A DNA stretch of 40,464 nt from Bacillota bacterium (GTDB lineage Bacteria > Bacillota > Sulfobacillia > JAJYWN01): NCBI GenBank assembly GCA_021791495.1, contig JAJYWN010000031.1, positions 1 through 40,464 of the forward strand, read 5' to 3'. Positions 21,539 through 30,937 of the stretch are shown here, one piece after another; the stretch's first letter is position 1, and each line of letters opens with the position of its first letter. A program made the position numbers and the translations under genes. The notes beneath the pieces are model-generated. The model saw nothing but the letters and a program-made list of their open reading frames with translations, ran no database searches and was not told where the DNA came from.

Positions 21539-23344
21539 CTAGACTTCGAGTATCACCGGGACGATGATGGGGCGACGACCGGTCTTCTCGTAAAGATGCT
21601 TGGCCAGGACGTCGCGGACCTGGTTCTTCACGGCTCCCCAATCGGCGGCCACCCGTGCGCCCGCCTCGCCGGAACCTTCTTCACCCTCCGCGGCGCCACC
21701 CGAAGACGCGGAGGCGGATGAGGACACCGACGCCAGTGCGGGCACCTCGGCCCCCTCCAGGCATCTCTCCACGGTCTCCCGCGCCTTGGCGCGCGCCTCT
21801 TCCAGGAGCTCCTCCGAGCTGCGGACATAGACGAAGCCGCGCGAGATCACTTCCGGCCCGGAAACGATGTGACCATCCTCCTTGGCCACAGAGAGCACCA
21901 CCACCATAATCCCGTCCGCTCCAAGTTGCCGGCGGTCGCGCAGCACGATATTGCCCACGTCTCCCACTCCCAGGCCATCCACCATGACGGACCCGGCCGG
22001 GACGTGACGGTCCACGTAGGCCCGCACCTCGCCGTCCTGGTCATAGAACTCGACGGTGGCGCCGTTCTCGAGGACCAAGGCGTTCTCCGGCTGGACCCCC
22101 ACTCCCACGGCCAAGTCCCGGTGGTGCACCAGGTGGCGGTACTCACCGTGAATGGGGATGAAGAACCTCGGGCGGATCAGGCTGATCATCATCTTCAGTT
22201 CTTCCTGGCTGGCATGCCCCGACACGTGCACTCCAGTGGACTCCTGGTAGATGACCCGCGCTCCGCGCCGGAACAGATGGTTCACCGTGCGGCCGACCAG
22301 CTTCTCGTTCCCGGGGATGGCGCTGGCGGCGATGACCACCAGATCGTCGGGGATGATCTCCACGCGCTTGTGATCGTCGGTGGCGATACGCGTCAGGGCC
22401 GACAGGGGCTCGCCCTGGCTGCCGGTGGTAAGCAGCACACATTCGCTGGCCGGGTACTTGCCCAGTTCGTCCAGGCGGATACGGGTGTCGCCCGGCACAT
22501 TCAGGTATCCAAGGCCGGCCGCCACATCCACCACTCTCTCAATGCTGCGGCCCGTGACCGCCACTTTCTTCCCAAGGGCGGCGGCGGCGGTGAACACCTG
22601 TTGGATGCGATGGACGTTCGAGGCGAAGGTGGCCACCAGCACGCGGCCGGGGGCGTTGCGGAAGATGTCTTCCAAGACTTGGCCGACCACGCGCTCAGAG
22701 CGGGTGTACCCCGCTTCTTCAGCGTTAGTGCTGTCGGATAAGAGGGCCAGCACGCCGTGCTGCCCGGCCTCGGCCAGCCGCTGGAAATCGGTGACCTCGC
22801 CGTCCACCGGTGTATAGTCGAACTTGAAGTCCCCGGTGTGGACGATGGGGCCCTGGGGGGTCTCGATAATGATCCCGACCGCCCCTGGGATGCTGTGGTT
22901 CACGCGGAAGAACTCCACGGTAAGAGACCCGGCCGCCACCCGGTCGCCGGGGCGGATGGACCGTGACTCCTCCGGAAGGCTGAGACCGTGCTCTTTCAGC
23001 TTCTCTTCGATGAGCCCCATGGTGAGGCGCGTCCCATACACCGGGCAGCTCACACGCCCCAAGAGGTAGGGCAAGGCCCCGGTGTGGTCCTCGTGGCCGT
23101 GCGTGATGAAGATACCGCGCAGGAGGTCCTTGTTCTCCACGACATAGGAGAAGTCCGGGATGACGATGTCGATCCCCAGCATCTCCTCTTCCGGGAAGGT
23201 CAGGCCGGCGTCGACCACGATCATGTCGTCGCCCGAGCGTACCGCCAACATGTTCTTCCCAATCTCCCCCAAGCCTCCGAGGAAGGTCACCTGGACCTTG
23301 GAAGCGCCTCCCTGGGAGGCATCCTTCGCCGTTTGCGCCGTCAA
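21539..23344 (-). CDS. rnj: Ribonuclease J
   Basis: A 601-residue metallo-beta-lactamase/beta-CASP ribonuclease, with 5'-to-3' exonuclease and endonuclease activity in RNA turnover. The zinc motif HGHEDH is at H82-H87 and the beta-CASP end motif HVSGHASQEEL is intact. The C-terminal domain is interrupted by about 25 Ser/Ala/Gly/Glu residues (SSSASASSGGAAEGEEGSG, 545-570), which explains the extra length over the usual ~555. TTG start at 23344 with GAGAGGTG 7-8 nt upstream. The gene has its own promoter and a hairpin leader and sits between dapA and tepA, as ymfA/rnjB does in Bacillus. Confidence 0.95.
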   Translation of the reverse strand: MTAQTAKDASQGGASKVQVTFLGGLGEIGKNMLAVRSGDDMIVVDAGLTFPEEEMLGIDIVIPDFSYVVENKDLLRGIFITHGHEDHTGALPYLLGRVSCPVYGTRLTMGLIEEKLKEHGLSLPEESRSIRPGDRVAAGSLTVEFFRVNHSIPGAVGIIIETPQGPIVHTGDFKFDYTPVDGEVTDFQRLAEAGQHGVLALLSDSTNAEEAGYTRSERVVGQVLEDIFRNAPGRVLVATFASNVHRIQQVFTAAAALGKKVAVTGRSIERVVDVAAGLGYLNVPGDTRIRLDELGKYPASECVLLTTGSQGEPLSALTRIATDDHKRVEIIPDDLVVIAASAIPGNEKLVGRTVNHLFRRGARVIYQESTGVHVSGHASQEELKMMISLIRPRFFIPIHGEYRHLVHHRDLAVGVGVQPENALVLENGATVEFYDQDGEVRAYVDRHVPAGSVMVDGLGVGDVGNIVLRDRRQLGADGIMVVVLSVAKEDGHIVSGPEVISRGFVYVRSSEELLEEARAKARETVERCLEGAEVPALASVSSSASASSGGAAEGEEGSGEAGARVAADWGAVKNQVRDVLAKHLYEKTGRRPIIVPVILEV

Positions 23345-23415: not shown

Positions 23416-23444
23416 ATTATACCTGCCGGAGGGCACGCTCACAA
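23416..23444 (-). promoter_or_regulatory. Sigma-A promoter of rnj
   Basis: On the minus strand TTGTGA (23439-23444) is followed after exactly 17 bp by TATAAT (23416-23421). Transcription should start near 23409, giving a leader of about 65 nt that contains the 12-bp hairpin. Confidence 0.82.
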
Positions 23445-23667: not shown

Positions 23668-24627
23668 TCAGCCCTGCACTGGAGCGCCGGACGAGCCGAC
23701 CGCCTCCGCGGCCACGAGGCCCGTACGCAAGCCGCCGGTACGCCCCACCGGGAAACCGACACCCACCTTCTCCATGGCCACACGCACCGTCTCTAGTTCC
23801 TTCCCGTTGGCCTCGATGAGCGGGAGCCGCAACCCGCCGCCGGGCAGCCCGGCCAGAGCCAGTGCGGCTTTCAGAGGGATGGGATTGCTCGTTACGAAGC
23901 ACGCCTTAAAGAAGGAGAAGAGTTCTCCGTGGATGCGGGCCGCCCCACGCACGTCCCCCGCTTCGTAGGCCAGGATCATTTCCTTGATCTGCTCGCCGAC
24001 TATGTGTGAGGCCACGCTGACGATACCGCGCCCTCCCACCGACATGATCGGCAGGGTCAGGCTATCGTCACCGCTGTAAACCGCCAGGTCAGGGCAACGC
24101 CGGCAGATCTCCGAAGCCTGGTCCAGGTTGCCGCTGGCCTCTTTAATGGCGACGATGTTCGGGATCTCGGCCAGCCGCGCCACGGTGTCCGGCAAGAGGT
24201 TGGCGCCCGTCCGCCCCGGTACGTTATAGACCATGACGGGCAGGTCCACGGCTTCCGCGATGGCCGCGAAGTGCCGATACATGGCCTCCTGGGGCGGCTT
24301 GTTGTAGTAAGGCACCACCGCCATCAGGCCGTCCACCCCGATCCGCGCCGCTTCGCGCGCCAGTTCGACGGAAGCCGCCGTGGAGTTCGTCCCGCAGCCG
24401 GCCACCACGCCGATGCCTTCCGGTACGGCGTCCCTGACTAGACGGAAGAGTTCCAACTTCTCCTCATGGGTGAGGGTCGGTGACTCGCCGGTGGTCCCGG
24501 CGACCACGATCGCATCGGTCCCCGTGGCCGCTAGGTGCCGGGCCAGAACGCCCACGCCCTCGCGGTCCAGGGACAAATCAGACCTGAACGGCGTAGCCAT
24601 AGCCGTTAGAAGCCGCCAGTTATTCAC
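23668..24627 (-). CDS. dapA: 4-hydroxy-tetrahydrodipicolinate synthase
   Basis: A 319-residue class I aldolase that condenses pyruvate with aspartate semialdehyde, the first committed step to diaminopimelate, lysine and dipicolinate. The Schiff-base lysine is K162 (IVAIKEASG), with Y134 and R139 in VYNVPGRTG, and the substrate motif GTTGESPTL is at 44-52. The C terminus runs about 25 residues past the usual end (GGLRTGLVAAEAVG...), reaching almost to the palindromic element. GTG start at 24627 with GGGAGGAG seven nt upstream. Last gene of the dapB-dpaA-dpaB-asd-dapG-dapA operon. Confidence 0.96.
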   Translation of the reverse strand: MNNWRLLTAMATPFRSDLSLDREGVGVLARHLAATGTDAIVVAGTTGESPTLTHEEKLELFRLVRDAVPEGIGVVAGCGTNSTAASVELAREAARIGVDGLMAVVPYYNKPPQEAMYRHFAAIAEAVDLPVMVYNVPGRTGANLLPDTVARLAEIPNIVAIKEASGNLDQASEICRRCPDLAVYSGDDSLTLPIMSVGGRGIVSVASHIVGEQIKEMILAYEAGDVRGAARIHGELFSFFKACFVTSNPIPLKAALALAGLPGGGLRLPLIEANGKELETVRVAMEKVGVGFPVGRTGGLRTGLVAAEAVGSSGAPVQG

Positions 24628-24645: not shown

Positions 24646-25950
24646 CTAGTCTTTTCTCGGGCCGTCTTCGCCCGCCAGGCCGAACTGCTCGTGGAGGGCG
24701 CGGACCGCGCGCTCCAGCCCTTCCATGGGGATGAGGCACGAAATGGTCACATGGGAGTCAGAGGTCTGAAGGATGGGCACGCCGGCCCGCTTTAGGGCTT
24801 TGACCACGTTCGCCATGACGCCCGGGACGCCGCGCATCCCGCTTCCCACCACCGAAACTTTGGCGCAATTGTCGCGGGTTACGGGCGCGTAGCCGGCCTG
24901 CCCGATCGCCGCCCGCGCCTGGGGCAACTCTTCGGTTTTCACGATGAAGGACTTGACCCCGGGAGACACGTTAATGAGGTCCACGCTCACTCCGGCACGG
25001 GCCAGGAGGTCGAAGATCCGCAGTTCAGCCTCGCCGCCGTCATCTTCCCCCACTTCTACGCGAACCAGGGAAACCGCGGGAATGTGCGTTACCGCCGTCA
25101 CCGGCGGGCCCAGCCCCGTGGAGGTCCAGGGCTTCCCCGCCCCCGCCGAGCCGACGATGAGCGTCCCGGGCGAGTCGGAGAAAGTGGACCTTACACGGAT
25201 GGGCACCCCCTTGGACATGGCGATCTCCACCGCCGCCGGATGGATGACCTTGGCCCCGAGGTGGGCCATCTGGGCCACCTCGTCGTAGCCGACCACCGAC
25301 AGTGTCCGGGCGTCCGGCACCAGCCGGGGATCGGCCGTGAGAACGCCCTCCACATCGGTGAAGATCTCTATCAGTTCAGCATCCAAAGCGGCTCCCAGAG
25401 CGGCGGCGGTGGTGTCGCTCCCGCCCCGGCCCAGGGTCGTTATGTCACCTGAGTCGGTGCGCCCCTGGAACCCTGCCACCACCACGACCTTCCCTTCGCG
25501 AAGGTGCCGTAGGAGGTGGTCCGTGTCCATACGGACGATGTTCGCCTGCGTGAAGGCCAGATCGGTCACGATTCCGGCTTGGCCCCCCGTCATCGCCATG
25601 GCTTCCAGCCCGTGCTCCCGGAGCGTGTTCACCATGATTACGGCGGAGATGATCTCCCCGCAGGACATCAAGAGGTCCAGTTCACGCGGGGCGGTCTCGG
25701 CATGCACGCCCCTGGCCAGTGAAACCAGGGTATCGGTGGCGTACGGGTCGCCGCCGCGCCCCATGGCGGAGACCACCACCACCGGTGTAAGCCCCTGCTT
25801 GGCGGCCCCGGACACCAGGTCCGCCACGCGGGCACGGCGCTCCGCTGTGGAGACGGAGGTCCCCCCGAATTTCTGGACGATGATGCGCATCCGGCCGCCC
25901 ACGCCGCCCAGACCGCCGACGCTACCCAAGCCGACCGCCCTGTCTGGCAT
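24646..25950 (-). CDS. dapG: Aspartokinase (DapG type)
   Basis: Phosphorylates aspartate, the entry to the lysine/diaminopimelate branch. The kinase domain begins IIVQKFGGTSVST and includes GRGGSDTTAAALG and FTDVEGVLTADPR. Two ACT domains follow (about 270-414 from the inner start; MRGVPGVMANVVKALKRAGV), as in diaminopimelate-regulated DapG. Two starts are possible. ATG at 25950 lies two bases after the asd stop, with GGGGGA in the end of asd, and adds a Gly-rich 20-residue lead. ATG at 25890 gives the standard family N terminus but has a poor Shine-Dalgarno sequence. The first is listed. Confidence 0.94.
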   Translation of the reverse strand: MPDRAVGLGSVGGLGGVGGRMRIIVQKFGGTSVSTAERRARVADLVSGAAKQGLTPVVVVSAMGRGGDPYATDTLVSLARGVHAETAPRELDLLMSCGEIISAVIMVNTLREHGLEAMAMTGGQAGIVTDLAFTQANIVRMDTDHLLRHLREGKVVVVAGFQGRTDSGDITTLGRGGSDTTAAALGAALDAELIEIFTDVEGVLTADPRLVPDARTLSVVGYDEVAQMAHLGAKVIHPAAVEIAMSKGVPIRVRSTFSDSPGTLIVGSAGAGKPWTSTGLGPPVTAVTHIPAVSLVRVEVGEDDGGEAELRIFDLLARAGVSVDLINVSPGVKSFIVKTEELPQARAAIGQAGYAPVTRDNCAKVSVVGSGMRGVPGVMANVVKALKRAGVPILQTSDSHVTISCLIPMEGLERAVRALHEQFGLAGEDGPRKD

Positions 25951-25952
25951 TC

Positions 25953-27080
25953 CTATCTCTCGTCCCCCGTCAGTCCGCTACCGGCGTTGGCGGCCCCGCC
26001 CAGGTCGTCGGCGGCCGCCGCGGCGGCCGCCTCCGCCCTCCCCAGCGACCATTCGCTCCACTGGCCCAGAGCAAGGAGGGTTTCGGCGATCTGCACGGCA
26101 TTGGTGGCCGCACCCTTGCGCAGGTTGTCGGCGACAATCCACATGTCCAGCCCGTAAGGCACCGACTGGTCACGGCGAATCCGCCCCACCAGCACTTCGT
26201 CCCGGCCGGCCGCGCCGCCGGGGCCGGCGGCCAGCGGGTACTCCAAGTGGGACGGATCATCGCGCACTTCCACCCCGGGAAAAGCGGCCAGGGCCGCGCG
26301 GGCCTGTTCCGGCGTGACCGGCGCCCCGAACTCCACGTTCACCGATTCGGAGTGGCCGATGAAGACCGGTATCCGCACCGTGGTGGCGGTAATGGCCAGG
26401 CCGGGCTGTCCCAGGATCTTCCGGGTCTCATGGATCATCTTCAGTTCTTCGCCCGTGTAGCCGGACACATCGAAGGAATCGATGTGTGGCAGGGCGTTAA
26501 ACGCGATTTGGTAAGGATACACGGAAATGGTCGGTTTCTCTTCCTCCAGGACCTGGGCCGTCTGATTCTCCAACTCGGTCATGGCGTCACGGCCGGTGCC
26601 GGACACCGCCTGGTAGGTGGACACCACCACTCGTTTCAAGGGGGCCAGCTGCGAAAGGGGCTTGAGGGCCATAACCATTTGGATGGTGGAGCAATTGGGA
26701 CTGGCGACGATACCCTTGTGGAAATTCAAGTCGTACCCGTTGACTTCGGGAACCACCAGCGGCACCGCGGGGTTCATGCGGTAGTGGCTGGACTTATCGA
26801 TCACCACGCCGCCGGCTTTCGCCACCACCGGAGCGTAACGCGCACTGGCTTCCCCGCTGGCGGCGAAGAATGCCAGATCGACACGGGCCAGGGCTTCGTC
26901 GGACACCGGTTGGACCGCCAGCCCTTTCCCGCGGAAGCTCACCACCTGGCCGGCCGAGCGGGCGGAGGCCAGTGGACGGAGTTCCGCCACGGGGAACGCC
27001 CTTTCTTCAAGAATCCGCATGATCTGTTGCCCGACCGCTCCTGTGGCGCCGAGCACCGCTACATTCAAGCCCCTTGTCAC
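25953..27080 (-). CDS. asd: Aspartate-semialdehyde dehydrogenase
   Basis: About 375 residues. Reduces aspartyl phosphate to aspartate semialdehyde with NADPH. The nucleotide loop GATGAVG is at 11-17, the catalytic Cys is C130 in SPNCSTIQMV, and the later catalytic His is in FIGHSESVNVEF. The C terminus carries an extra Ala/Gly-rich tail of about 30 residues. GTG at 27080 is preferred because AAAGGTGG lies ten nt upstream and the family starts with LNVAVLGATG; the open frame runs on to 27329 but there it overlaps dpaB. Confidence 0.95.
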   Translation of the reverse strand: MTRGLNVAVLGATGAVGQQIMRILEERAFPVAELRPLASARSAGQVVSFRGKGLAVQPVSDEALARVDLAFFAASGEASARYAPVVAKAGGVVIDKSSHYRMNPAVPLVVPEVNGYDLNFHKGIVASPNCSTIQMVMALKPLSQLAPLKRVVVSTYQAVSGTGRDAMTELENQTAQVLEEEKPTISVYPYQIAFNALPHIDSFDVSGYTGEELKMIHETRKILGQPGLAITATTVRIPVFIGHSESVNVEFGAPVTPEQARAALAAFPGVEVRDDPSHLEYPLAAGPGGAAGRDEVLVGRIRRDQSVPYGLDMWIVADNLRKGAATNAVQIAETLLALGQWSEWSLGRAEAAAAAAADDLGGAANAGSGLTGDER

Positions 27081-27156
27081 TGCCAAAAGGCCACCTTTCT
27101 CTCTATCGTCCGGCTCCGACAGTCCTCGGCCGGTCGTTCCGCCCTGGTCCCAGCCG

Positions 27157-27750
27157 TCAGCCCACGGCCGGCCCCAGCAAGACCGGTTGGATCTGCTTGC
27201 CGGCCAGCGCCGCTTCGGCTGCCGCCGGCAGGTACTCCAGGCGAGCGACCAGGGAGGTCGGCTTCCCGTGCGGGTCGTCCTGACCGAAAGGCACGAAGAA
27301 GATGTTCCGGGTCGCCAGCAAGAGTCCAATGTTCTTGGCGCTCAGCCCCAAACCATCGTTGGTGGATACCGCCAGGAGGACCGGCCGGCCGTTGCGCATG
27401 TGCGCCTTGGCAGCCATGGTCACCGGCCCGTCGGTGATACCCAGAGCCAGCTTGGCCAGGGTGTTTCCAGTGCAGGGCGCTATGATCACCAGATCCAGCA
27501 GTTTCTTCGGGCCGATGGGCTCGACCTCGGGAACGGTCGAAAGCGCCCTCTTGCCGGTTAGCTTCTCCAGTCTTTCCAGGTGCTCGGAGGCCTTGCCGAA
27601 GCGGGTATCCGTGGCGGCCACAGCCACCGAAACTATTGGAGTCACATCACATCCCGATTTCACCAGTTCCTCGATGCACGGGAACACCGCTGCGAAAGTA
27701 CAATGGCTCCCCGTCAGAGCGAAGCCGATTCTTTTTCCCGTCAGACTCAT
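27157..27750 (-). CDS. dpaB: Dipicolinate synthase subunit B
   Basis: A 197-residue flavoprotein-fold subunit (SpoVFB) which, with DpaA, oxidises the dapA product to dipicolinic acid, the calcium-chelating solute of the spore core. The start GKRIGFALTGSHCTF and the segments IIAPCTGNTLAKLALGITD and STNDGLGLSAKNIG are typical. It is made in the mother cell in Bacillus. It follows dpaA by 74 bp and precedes asd, the same order as in Bacillus. Confidence 0.94.
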   Translation of the reverse strand: MSLTGKRIGFALTGSHCTFAAVFPCIEELVKSGCDVTPIVSVAVAATDTRFGKASEHLERLEKLTGKRALSTVPEVEPIGPKKLLDLVIIAPCTGNTLAKLALGITDGPVTMAAKAHMRNGRPVLLAVSTNDGLGLSAKNIGLLLATRNIFFVPFGQDDPHGKPTSLVARLEYLPAAAEAALAGKQIQPVLLGPAVG

Positions 27751-27824: not shown

Positions 27825-28697
27825 TCAGCCGGTGAACCCGGGAGTCTCCAGTACAGTGGTCCGGACTACTTCCGCCACAATGCGGCCCGCCGTCTTCGGC
27901 GCCACCTTCCCCGGCAGCCCCGGGAGCAGCACGGCCCGGAGTTTCAAGGAGGAGGCGGAGGCGAAATCGGTCCCTCCCGGCGCGGTGGCCAGGTCGATGA
28001 CCACGGCCGCCGCCGGCAGGCGGGCCAACCGGTCCTGGGTGAGGACCATGGCCGGAACAGTGTTGAAAACGACATCGGCGGTGACCAGCCGGTCTCCGGC
28101 GTCTCTCAGGTCTACGGGCTCCAAACCGAAAGCCGCGGCTTGCGCCAGTGCTTCCGGACGCCTGGCGATCAAGAAAACTCGGGCGGACAGCGCTTTCAGT
28201 TTGAGCGCCAGCGGCCACGCAATGCGGCCCGACCCGAAGACGGCCACGTCGGCGCCGTGGAGGGTGATGTCGGTCATCTCCATGGCTGCCGCGATGGCCC
28301 CTTCCGCCGTAGGCACCGCGTTGGCCAAGGCGAAGTCATCGCGCTCGCGAAAATCGCGGACGATAGCCCCCGCCGCCGACGCCTGTCGGGCCCAGTTTCC
28401 GTCCGTCAGTCCCGATACGATCAGAAAACCAGGTCGAAAGCCCGCCGGTGAGAGAACCAGAGGATCGGGTCCTCCGCCTTTCGTCAATCCACCCGAGCCG
28501 ATCCCGGATACCGGGCACAGCAGGACGTCGGCCCAAGAGAGGCCTTCCTTCAAGTCCCGGATCTCCTGGAGTCCCGTCCCGGACTGGACGCGGTACGTCC
28601 GGACTTCCGGTCCCATGCGGGACAGGAAGGCCGCCGCTTCGGCCTCTCTCCGGTCACCACCGACCACTATGAACTTTAACTCCGACCACCGTGACAA
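27825..28697 (-). CDS. dpaA: Dipicolinate synthase subunit A
   Basis: About 290 residues; the dehydrogenase-like subunit (SpoVFA) of dipicolinate synthase. It starts LKFIVVGGDRREAEAAAFL, a nucleotide-binding fold, and contains a second Rossmann motif VAVFGSGRIAWPLALKL and a FNTVPAMVL segment typical of the family. TTG at 28697 with GGGGGAG seven nt upstream fixes the start; the frame stays open to 28793. A sigma-K-like promoter lies about 60-90 bp upstream. It follows dapB in the lysine-riboswitch operon. Confidence 0.94.
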   Translation of the reverse strand: MSRWSELKFIVVGGDRREAEAAAFLSRMGPEVRTYRVQSGTGLQEIRDLKEGLSWADVLLCPVSGIGSGGLTKGGGPDPLVLSPAGFRPGFLIVSGLTDGNWARQASAAGAIVRDFRERDDFALANAVPTAEGAIAAAMEMTDITLHGADVAVFGSGRIAWPLALKLKALSARVFLIARRPEALAQAAAFGLEPVDLRDAGDRLVTADVVFNTVPAMVLTQDRLARLPAAAVVIDLATAPGGTDFASASSLKLRAVLLPGLPGKVAPKTAGRIVAEVVRTTVLETPGFTG

Positions 28698-28758
28698 GTC
28701 TTTTCTCCCCCGACAGCCAAAATGAAGTCCCCCAGGTGCGAGGCGCCCTTTGTGGGCC

Positions 28759-28787
28759 AGTATATGACCCCCGTCCCTAGGAGGTTC
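28759..28787 (-). promoter_or_regulatory. Possible sigma-K (or sigma-E) promoter before dpaA
   Basis: On the minus strand GAACC (28783-28787) stands 16 bp before CATATACTG. Measured from AC, the spacing to CATA is 17 bp. This fits the Bacillus sigma-K consensus AC-N17-CATANNNTA except for the last base. The -10 also fits sigma-E (CATACANT) at 7 of 8 positions. It lies in the dapB-dpaA gap, and dpaAB is sigma-K dependent in Bacillus. Confidence 0.45.
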
Positions 28788-28810
28788 AGGCATCTGGGCT
28801 CTAGTCCCAG

Positions 28811-29695
28811 CTAGGGTCGGGTTTGCCCCAGGACTTCCAGGACCTCCTCCAGCGAGCCGATCATGTGGTCCAACTGCATGACCGCCCTCACTGCCATGAG
28901 TACTCCCGGCACGAATGACGCTCGGGAAATGGTGTCGTGCCGGAGAGTGAGGATCTCGCCGGCTGAGCCAAAGATGATCTCGTGGTGCGCCACCAGGCCG
29001 GGCAGCCGGACGCTGTGCACGGGAACACCCAAGCCGGTACGCGATTGCAGGTCCTCCGCCATCCTCCGGGCCGTACCGGACGGGCGGTCTTTCTTCGTAT
29101 CGTGATGCAGCTCGATGATCTCACAGGACGGGAAGAAGCGGACCGCCTCCCTGGCCAGCCTGGCCAGGAGCAGCGCCCCGAGGGAGAAGTTGGGGATCAC
29201 GGCGCCGCCGATACCCTTGTCCACCGCCAACCGGAAGGCTGCCTGCAGAGTGTCCTTCGCAATGGAAGTCGTCCCGAAAACCGGCCGGACCCCGGCGTCC
29301 AGGGCCGCCAGGAGGTGACGCGCGCCGGCCTCGGGATGGGTGAAGTCGATGAGTACGTCGGGGTCCTTTCGGAGTACCTCTTCTATGGTGCGGTCGATGG
29401 TGGTGCCCGAGGCGGGCAGGCCTACCACTTCGCCGACATCGCGCCCCGCTTCCAGGGCAAGGGCGCCCACTAGCTGGAACTCTCCTGGTGTACTCAGGAT
29501 GGTCTGCACGATTTCCCGGCCGACTTTCCCCGTGGCCCCGGCCACGGCTACTCTGGTCGCCCGCGTCGCCGAGCGGAGGCGCCGCCCACGCCCGGCCTCG
29601 GCTGCAGTACGTTCCCGAGCCACCCGGAAGGTGGTGGGAATTACCTCGGCCGCCGCCGGCTGTCCTTGCGGTGCTGCCTGTTCCTCTCCCTGCAC
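28811..29695 (-). CDS. dapB: 4-hydroxy-tetrahydrodipicolinate reductase
   Basis: About 294 residues. Reduces the dapA product with NAD(P)H. The nucleotide loop VAVAGATGKVGREI begins near residue 49 and the catalytic motif ELHHDTKKDRPSGTA is complete. GTG at 29695, ten nt after AGAGGAG, is chosen as the first start downstream of the riboswitch terminator; the open frame extends to 29857 through the terminator and cannot be real. This leaves about 45 residues of Gln/Ala/Arg-rich sequence before the usual N terminus, which is odd for DapB; a later unmarked start is possible. First gene of the riboswitch-controlled operon. Confidence 0.93.
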   Translation of the reverse strand: MQGEEQAAPQGQPAAAEVIPTTFRVARERTAAEAGRGRRLRSATRATRVAVAGATGKVGREIVQTILSTPGEFQLVGALALEAGRDVGEVVGLPASGTTIDRTIEEVLRKDPDVLIDFTHPEAGARHLLAALDAGVRPVFGTTSIAKDTLQAAFRLAVDKGIGGAVIPNFSLGALLLARLAREAVRFFPSCEIIELHHDTKKDRPSGTARRMAEDLQSRTGLGVPVHSVRLPGLVAHHEIIFGSAGEILTLRHDTISRASFVPGVLMAVRAVMQLDHMIGSLEEVLEVLGQTRP

Positions 29696-29746
29696 TTGGC
29701 GTCCACTCCTCTTTCCGGTATTCTGCTCAGGGCTGGTGGAGGACGC

Positions 29747-29771
29747 AAAAAAACCCGGCTTGAACGCCGGG
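29747..29771 (-). terminator. Intrinsic terminator of the lysine riboswitch
   Basis: On the minus strand CCCGGC-GTTCAA-GCCGGG (29754-29771) is followed by seven T residues (29747-29753). It stands between the lysine aptamer and dapB and is the likely expression platform. Confidence 0.9.
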
Positions 29772-29832
29772 CGCAGCACCTCAAGAATGCGCGGAGGCTG
29801 CCGAAGCCACGGCCTCAAACCATCCCTTGAGC

Positions 29833-30008
29833 GAAGTAGCTCTCCACCGGGACCCAAGGGTGATGCCCCGGTGACAGTCCGTCACCTGTTAGGCGCCGGA
29901 CCAGCTCTCGTGGCCTTAGCAACCACGCGCTTCGGCGGTGTCCCCTTTCCGGCCGTTCTTCGATGCCCTTCTCCAGGCCGTACTCTTGGATCACCGCGCC
30001 TCTACCCC
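29833..30008 (-). ncRNA. Lysine riboswitch (L-box) aptamer
   Basis: Read on the minus strand, the RNA has the conserved L-box blocks in order: GAGGCGCGG, CCAAGAGTACGG, GAAAGGGG, CGCCGAAG, GAGAGCTGGT, GGACTGTCACC and GGTGGAGAGCTA. P1 can form between GGGGTAG (30002-30008) and CTACTTC (29833-29839), two of its seven pairs being G-U. The length (176 nt) agrees with the family. A terminator follows and dapB is the first gene, so lysine binding should stop transcription of the operon. Confidence 0.93.
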
Positions 30009-30106
30009 ACTCCACGGAGGAATGAGGCATCGTGCTCTATGCCTTTTAAACCGCTATTTTCTGGCTTGGCCCCGGCTTTAGGCCCTCCGCGCTGTCTACC
30101 AGGCTG

Positions 30107-30191
30107 GCCCGCTACTCATCTATATGCGGGCTGGGCCGCCGCTGCTCATCAACACCAGTTGTTGGACTGAATATAGCACCGCTGCTCATCA
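30107..30191 (-). repeat. Direct repeats TGATGAGCAGCG around the dap promoter
   Basis: On the minus strand TGATGAGCAGCGG occurs at about 30179-30191 (in the promoter spacer) and 30139-30151, with a weaker form GATGAGTAGCGGG at 30108-30120. A further copy, TTGATGAGCAGCGACG, overlaps the stop codon of the stress-type gene at 30335-30350. They may be operators; the binding protein is unknown. Confidence 0.4.
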
Positions 30192-30198
30192 CCGTCAA
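30170..30198 (-). promoter_or_regulatory. Sigma-A promoter of the dapB operon
   Basis: On the minus strand TTGACG (30193-30198) is followed after 17 bp by TATATT (30170-30175). Transcription should start near 30163, about 155 nt before the aptamer. One copy of the TGATGAGCAGCG repeat sits in the spacer. Confidence 0.78.
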
Positions 30199-30267
30199 TA
30201 CAATATTTGAAGTTCACGCAGGATGCGGCAAAAGCGGTTTTATCTGGCCCGCGTCTGCTCTTCAACC

Positions 30268-30307
30268 AAAAAAGAGAGGCACGGCCGTCGGGGCCGCGCC
30301 TCTCTTT
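30268..30307 (-). terminator. Rho-independent terminator after the stress-type gene
   Basis: On the minus strand AAAGAGAGGC pairs with GCCTCTCTTT (arms 30298-30307 and 30271-30280), with an inner CGGCC/GGCCG stem, followed by a run of T residues (30268-30273). It ends the upstream gene and isolates the dap operon. Confidence 0.88.
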
Positions 30308-30346
30308 CGGGCTTCAGTTTGGGTCTCTAAGGACCGTCGCTGCTCA

Positions 30347-30937
30347 TCAATGGGTTTCGACGTCGGTGGCACCGTTGCGCCGGAAGATTTCGGCCGCCTC
30401 ATCCACCTTGTCGCTGCTGCTCTTCACCAGGCAGACGATCTCCCCTTCCCGGACCTTCTCCTCGTACTTCCTGCCGCTCTCCGGGGGAATGCCGAAGTCG
30501 ATGAGCCCGCCGGCCACCCCACCGGTGACCGCGCCGGTCAAGGCGCCGGCGATGGGGCCCGCCGCCAGAAGGGGGCCGATTCCGGGGATGGCCAGGGCGC
30601 CGGCTCCGGCCAAAAGTCCCGCCAAACCGCCGATGGCTCCACCGGTGGTCACGCCGTCGCCAATGTTCTGGTGAGTGTAGCTTGAGCCCGTGGTCATAGT
30701 CATCCCGCCACGGCCGCCTTGGCCGCCCTCACCACCGCGGCCCCCCTGCCCCTGGTCCTTCGTGATGATGGAGATCTCGTTCTTCGAAAAACCCTTCTTC
30801 TCCAGATCGTTGACGGCCTTTTCGGCGTCATTCCGGGACTTGAACACTCCCACGACGGTGGTCTTGTTGCCCCCGCCCTGCCCGGCCCCGCGGCCGAAGG
30901 AACCGCCAAACTGGTTGTTGTTGCCCCGATCGGTCAT
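30347..30937 (-). CDS. Glycine-rich stress-type protein (YflT-like domain)
   Basis: A 196-residue protein. After a Gly/Asn-rich start comes a small alpha/beta domain TTVVGVFKSRNDAEKAVNDL...GFSKNEISIITKD (about 26-62), as in the YflT/general stress protein 17M family. Then a Gly-rich linker, a Gly/Ala-rich glycine-zipper-like hydrophobic segment (about 97-150: GGLAGLLAGAGALAIPGIGP) and a second alpha/beta half (EGEIVCLVKSSSDKVDEAAEIFRRNGA). The zipper could insert in or associate with membranes. The function is unproven; the stress link is by family only. ATG at 30937 follows a perfect AAAGGAGG. That ribosome binding site is complementary to 31017-31026 upstream (see separate entry). Confidence 0.8.
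   Translation of the reverse strand: MTDRGNNNQFGGSFGRGAGQGGGNKTTVVGVFKSRNDAEKAVNDLEKKGFSKNEISIITKDQGQGGRGGEGGQGGRGGMTMTTGSSYTHQNIGDGVTTGGAIGGLAGLLAGAGALAIPGIGPLLAAGPIAGALTGAVTGGVAGGLIDFGIPPESGRKYEEKVREGEIVCLVKSSSDKVDEAAEIFRRNGATDVETH

Follow-up and report, generated by a model that had tools for sequence, protein, structure and literature searches.

The contig JAJYWN010000031.1 of a Bacillota bacterium from the class Sulfobacillia (40,464 nucleotides, analyzed in full and called the window below) carries the dipicolinate synthase genes dpaA and dpaB inside an operon of lysine biosynthesis genes. The operon begins with a predicted lysine riboswitch and reads dapB-dpaA-dpaB-asd-dapG-dapA, all on the minus strand, with the RNase J gene next. 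It is probably a nested two-promoter operon: growing cells would transcribe it through sigma-A and the lysine riboswitch, and the mother cell through sigma-K from the gap between dapB and dpaA. The sequence-only reading of this DNA had described a promoter, an L-box aptamer, a terminator and the six genes in one direction, which the aptamer score and the protein family matches bear out. It had also set the operon apart from the developmentally controlled spoVF operon of Bacillus. This contrast is not supported: past the riboswitch, the dapB-dpaA gap holds a sigma-K-type promoter sequence that is conserved at this place across spore formers. Most likely, dpaA is still developmentally switched, from a putative promoter beyond the reach of the riboswitch. 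The control elements are:

28759 to 28786, minus strand: sigma-K-type promoter AACC-N16-CATATACT in the 113-nucleotide dapB-dpaA gap, a strict motif match
29743 to 29772, minus strand: intrinsic terminator of the riboswitch, a 7-bp stem and T-run (hairpin GCCCGGC-GTTCAA-GCCGGGT at 29772-29753)
29829 to 30012, minus strand: lysine riboswitch aptamer RF00168, 93.5 bits, E 1.3e-23, full length (model 1-182)
30170 to 30198, minus strand: sigma-A-like promoter TTGACG-N17-TATATT of the riboswitch leader, 10/12, with TG ahead of the -10

The sigma-K-type site and its conservation

The element AACC-N16-CATATACT fits what we take to be the consensus of the mother-cell factor sigma-K. The strict form of the motif, [AC]AC[AC]-N15-17-CATANNNT, has a single match on both strands of the window, the site in the dapB-dpaA gap; under a first-order model the expected number of matches is 0.53 for the full window and 0.00074 for the gap. 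Sigma-K itself is encoded in the genome (343.1 bits, cut-off 298.65), and the remaining hits, at C35, have the arrangement of candidate sigma-E and sigma-G genes. As a reader of the site, sigma-E was considered and rejected by eye, as the -10 fits partly and no A+T-rich -35 is seen. PMC3789822 describes dpaAB as sigma-K-dependent in C. difficile and also in B. subtilis.

A survey of the window and 99 loci (L033-L132, leaving out L053, which repeats L033) covered the 200 nucleotides upstream of each protein match with a loose form of the motif, using dinucleotide shuffles as control. Of the 93 dpaA places, 69 have the motif, where shuffles average 3.5. Ahead of the other genes it stays near the shuffle mean (in brackets): 1 of 29 places for dapB (1.0), 1 of 46 for asd (0.9), 2 of 64 for dapG (1.6), none of 67 for dapA (2.8) and 2 of 59 for rnj (2.1), with dpaB slightly above chance at 4 of 98 (1.4). 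At some of the 24 dpaA places that miss, the protein match started within the gene; on a wider stretch with slightly wider spacing the site appears in L107 and L046, and L048 and L040 still show none. Where the locus includes dapB, the motif is present in 25 of the 28 places listed, and among riboswitch-bearing dpa operons in 13 of 14 (the window, L033, L034, L035 and nine heliobacteria).

The riboswitch leader

The aptamer is the sole Rfam match in the window above the gathering score of 30. The terminator hairpin starts 55-56 nucleotides past the aptamer end, and the riboswitch ahead of lysA in the same genome has a similar hairpin at the same offset. A terminator scan of the window gave five sites against a shuffle mean of 5.5, which is chance level overall, so the call of the riboswitch terminator rests on its position and on this counterpart hairpin.

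Lysine usually turns the riboswitch off ahead of biosynthetic genes. Riboswitches of the ON type that respond to lysine are on record (PMC2258182). We infer both the lysine response of the predicted riboswitch and its sign. The leader folds are close in energy, at -123.7 free and -123.1 with P1 forced.

As a separate observation, TGATGAGCAGCG occurs in four copies (three exact, one with two mismatches) at 30110-30349 on the minus strand, ahead of and within the leader. With up to two mismatches the window has eight matches against 3.4 expected, a number reached by 6 of 100 shuffles; the clustering of the four copies is notable.

A probable operon with two nested promoters

In growth, dapB-dpaA-dpaB-asd-dapG-dapA would form a single lysine-controlled unit driven by the sigma-A promoter and a transcription-terminating lysine riboswitch, since the sole dapA sits at the far end of the operon. 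A single dapB and a single dapA exceed the family cut-off in the genome, a second DapA-like protein falling below it; aspartate kinases number two. The interval from dapB to dapA shows no strong terminator, as the sequence-only reading had stated, only weak sites at chance level in the scan, and no sigma-A-like site of at least 9/12. With the riboswitch upstream and neither a strong terminator nor another such promoter in between, its transcript would probably read through dpaA and dpaB. Growing cells, moreover, depend on dapA to make lysine and cell wall, and the one promoter located for this gene is that of the riboswitch, which likewise makes read-through of dpaAB in growth likely. The proposal that dpaA and dpaB are repressed by lysine together with the biosynthetic genes is thus supported in part: the genes lie downstream of the riboswitch and are probably read through, but the sporulation route should bypass the riboswitch.

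In the sporulating mother cell, the sigma-K promoter would drive dpaA-dpaB-asd-dapG-dapA. This transcript would encode all enzymes from aspartate to dipicolinate, except kinase-independent ones outside it, without DapB. DapB competes with the dipicolinate branch for one intermediate, and its absence from the sporulation transcript would have a consequence for flux. The transcript would also begin downstream of the riboswitch and carry no aptamer, so lysine could not shut it off. More tentatively, and with slightly less than even confidence, we propose that nested promoters make two overlapping pathways of one run of genes, so that the transcription start chooses the branch taken at the DapA product. 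In growth the transcript would include dapB, answer to lysine and serve lysine and cell wall synthesis; in the mother cell it would lack dapB, ignore lysine and serve dipicolinate synthesis. The layout is fixed in heliobacteria and was seemingly assembled repeatedly.

We also considered a translational lock, in which the dpaA ribosome-binding site would be hidden in the long transcript and exposed in the shorter sigma-K one, and rejected it. At first the short transcript was more open in 19 of 25 cases and less open in one, an effect that was gone with starts fixed and upstream sequence shuffled. The control on 22 dapB-bearing loci gave 0.23 for the long transcript, 0.29 for shuffled sequence and 0.24 for shuffled sequence with the motif kept; the window has 0.18 for both long and short transcripts.

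Several points weigh against the two-promoter scheme. Its promoters are predictions from sequence, and the sigma-K motif was set from a general consensus. Many of the 93 surveyed dpaA places are related, those of Paenibacillus above all, hence the counts are not independent. The lone miss among the 14 riboswitch-bearing operons is in a relative of the window genome (L040, genome G015), with AATATACT where CATATACT is expected. Folding of the leader showed no clear switch between terminator and antiterminator and does not fix the direction of the lysine response. Sigma-A-like sites of 8/12 are present inside the operon, one of them overlapping the sigma-K site, and an internal sigma-A promoter scoring below 9/12 may exist.

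Such a promoter is part of a rival explanation that we regard as unlikely, though the likeliest of the rivals: the riboswitch would in practice govern dapB alone, its transcript stopping or decaying before dpaA, and asd-dapG-dapA would depend on an undetected vegetative promoter. A vegetative promoter for asd exists in B. subtilis, the window has weak sigma-A-like sites, and positions 28743-28730 could form a weak hairpin that ends in a T-rich tail. Terminators of this class, however, occur at chance (5 found, 5.5 expected), no sigma-A-like site from dapB to dapA reaches 9/12, and the genes are tightly spaced through dapA.

A true tie between lysine and dipicolinate is improbable. Here, read-through would make DpaAB in lysine-poor growth, leading to vegetative dipicolinate or to priming for sporulation. 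The placement of dpaAB between dapB and the only dapA would suit this explanation, as would the retention of the layout in all nine heliobacterial genomes. We know of no vegetative role of dipicolinate, however; the sigma-K site suffices for spores, and in genome G028 a dpaB copy under a riboswitch has lost conserved residues. The suggestion of the sequence-only reading that dipicolinate output follows lysine status is accordingly weakened: it retains possible read-through in growth, against a separate sigma-K-type promoter for sporulation.

Still less credible is service of dpaA and dpaB by the riboswitch promoter alone, with dipicolinate repressed by lysine and no developmental promoter: the single direction, the short gaps and the absence of a strong terminator agree with it, against which stand the conserved sigma-K-type site between dapB and dpaA and the presence of a sigma-K gene. 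That the site is a chance match or a relic, with dpaAB silent in sporulation, is very unlikely: although the motif is short, degenerate and predicted from sequence, the gap is expected to hold 0.00074 matches and the same place is conserved in distant spore formers.

Genes of the operon and its neighborhood

The genes were assigned by protein family models as follows:

28811 to 29695, minus strand: dapB, 4-hydroxy-tetrahydrodipicolinate reductase (TIGR00036, 207 bits, cut-off 122)
27825 to 28697, minus strand: dpaA, dipicolinate synthase subunit A (PF16924 DpaA_N, 38.8 bits, cut-off 29.2)
27157 to 27750, minus strand: dpaB, dipicolinate synthase subunit B (TIGR02852, 291.4 bits, cut-off 229)
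25953 to 27086, minus strand: asd, aspartate-semialdehyde dehydrogenase, start judged to be TTG 27086 (TIGR01296, 419.8 bits, cut-off 324.2)
24646 to 25890, minus strand: dapG-type aspartate kinase, start at 25890 or 25950 (NF006068, 547.2 bits, cut-off 474)
23668 to 24627, minus strand: dapA, 4-hydroxy-tetrahydrodipicolinate synthase (TIGR00674, 332.2 bits, cut-off 206.15)
21539 to 23344, minus strand: RNase J, the next gene after dapA (TIGR00649, 598.4 bits, cut-off 400)

The dapB start was placed at GTG 29695, judging from AGGAG at 29710-29706. The likely dpaA start is TTG 28697, preceded by GGGGGAG, in agreement with the coordinate in the sequence-only reading. The longest frame of DpaA scores under both NCBIfam cut-offs for dipicolinate synthase subunit A (251.2 against 261 and 233.4 against 319.65), and the protein from the likely start clears that of Pfam DpaA_N. 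With this match, the best family by far and an adjacent dpaB, the predicted protein is a divergent DpaA homologue.

The RNase J gene is preceded by its own sigma-A-like site, TTGTGA-N17-TATAAT (23416-23444, minus strand), and with this site may be independent of the operon. It is followed downstream by genes for a Clp-type protease, a BacA-type protein and an FtsK/SpoIIIE translocase; upstream of the operon lie those for an M16 peptidase, a dUTPase and PNPase. These flanks presumably match the spoVF neighborhood of B. subtilis, which makes the riboswitch and dapB the new parts of the region, and not the spore genes.

Distribution of the layout

The survey of the layout took in 136 genomes with a completeness of 85% or more from the class of the window, with aptamers in loci located by a loose regular expression and a sequence hidden Markov model. 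The dpaB gene is present in 101 of these genomes and a lysine riboswitch in 35; the riboswitch stands directly ahead of dapB-dpaA-dpaB in 4 of the 101 (the window's genome, G031, G005 and G037). G015 is a probable fifth case, split over two contigs: one stops after the riboswitch and dapB, and on the other dpaA starts close to the contig end. Three order-mates of the window genome have the dapB-dpaA operon and no lysine riboswitch detected in the genome. Among 80 loci from named genomes, the riboswitch is found in two, Candidatus Acetocimmeria pyornia (L053, the repeat of L033) and Heliobacterium mobile DSM 6151 (Rfam, 105.7 bits).

The layout is general in the heliobacterial order, where all nine genomes carry lysine riboswitches, 20 in total, all of whose places were covered (17 regions and L116). 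In each genome one of the riboswitches stands ahead of dapB-dpaA-dpaB-asd-dapA-rnj, and eight also show dapG there (not L156). A sigma-K-type site lies in the dapB-dpaA gap in all nine, in two of them only on reading past a truncated protein match, and a terminator follows the aptamer in eight of the nine dpa operons (not in L162).

Two further loci of the survey depart from the usual gene content. In L049 (genome G006), dpaB-asd-dapG-dapA comes immediately after dapB, and the stretch covered contains no dpaA match; either its dipicolinate synthase works without the usual partner, or dpaA is elsewhere. Genome G030 has a lone DpaB paralogue (L043 6116-6883, minus strand, 224 bits), divergent from a membrane-protein gene and away from dap and dpa matches.

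In G028 the two controls occupy different operons. One reads dpaA-dpaB-dapG-dapA and has a sigma-K-type site, while the stretch covered shows no riboswitch; the other reads riboswitch-dpaB2-dapG-dapA without a sigma-K-type site (L036 4717-8130, oriented on dpaB). The dpaB2 protein lacks the SHC and TRFG residues, which are invariant or nearly so in an alignment of 24 sequences, and it may be in decay or have taken on another function. The copies of dapG are 54% and those of dapA 55% identical, which speaks against a recent duplication. In G028, then, each of the two predicted controls has its own set of genes within the same cell.

Origin of the riboswitch leader

The second lysine riboswitch of the window's genome precedes lysA (L044 3112-4944, minus strand, C64). 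In a tree of 27 aptamers, which left out L152 (it ends at a contig edge) and in which most forks are weak, the window aptamer is sister to this lysA aptamer with 100/95 support and 80% identity. Grouping the dpa-operon aptamers in one clade, and with it their single origin, was rejected (p-AU 0.0067 with six rows, 0.0021 with five), though the groups in this test were defined with the tree already in view. Most simply, a leader was copied within the genome; gene conversion is possible and would look the same. In the more tentative proposal above, the layout would have arisen repeatedly through the addition of riboswitch leaders, one or more of them being a copy of that of lysA.

Relation to known operons and implications

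The region order in B. subtilis is, as we take it, spoVF (dpaA-dpaB)-asd-dapG-dapA-rnjB. The spoVF-type region of Bacillus changyiensis (L063) has the same order as the window from dpaA to RNase J, and both have a sigma-K-type site before dpaA. Compared with B. subtilis spoVF and with C. difficile dpaAB (PMC3789822), the window adds dapB and the lysine riboswitch in front, which places its spore genes inside a lysine-controlled unit as well. Desulfosporosinus, Desulfotruncus, Thermincola and the order-mates of the window share dapB-dpaA-dpaB-asd-dapG-dapA-rnj and the sigma-K-type site in the dapB-dpaA gap; unlike the window, they have no RF00168 aptamer in front.

The other component is equally familiar. 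Table 1 of PMC5584792 lists the C. difficile L box operon lysA-asd-dapA-dapB, where RF00168 precedes lysine biosynthesis genes as in the window; none of the L box operons in the passage of that table covered here includes dpaAB, unlike the window. The main text of this survey of 468 lysine riboswitches has no occurrence of dipicolin, spoVF, dapG or heliobac. No published title or abstract on the layout was found, and an earlier mention in Rodionov et al. 2003 or in a regulon database is possible.

The layout, conserved and recurrent, joins two familiar arrangements: the lysine riboswitch operon and the dipicolinate operon under sigma-K, whose promoter lies inside the unit of the former. It cautions that the regulation of an operon is not readable from its first promoter alone. 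The predicted developmental promoter comes after the riboswitch as well as the competing gene. In this way one operon can serve spore formation and an essential amino-acid pathway that have enzymes in common, and the amino-acid switch need not block spores. Heliobacteria offer cultured systems for asking whether the riboswitch limits the developmental program, leaks into it or is bypassed by it.

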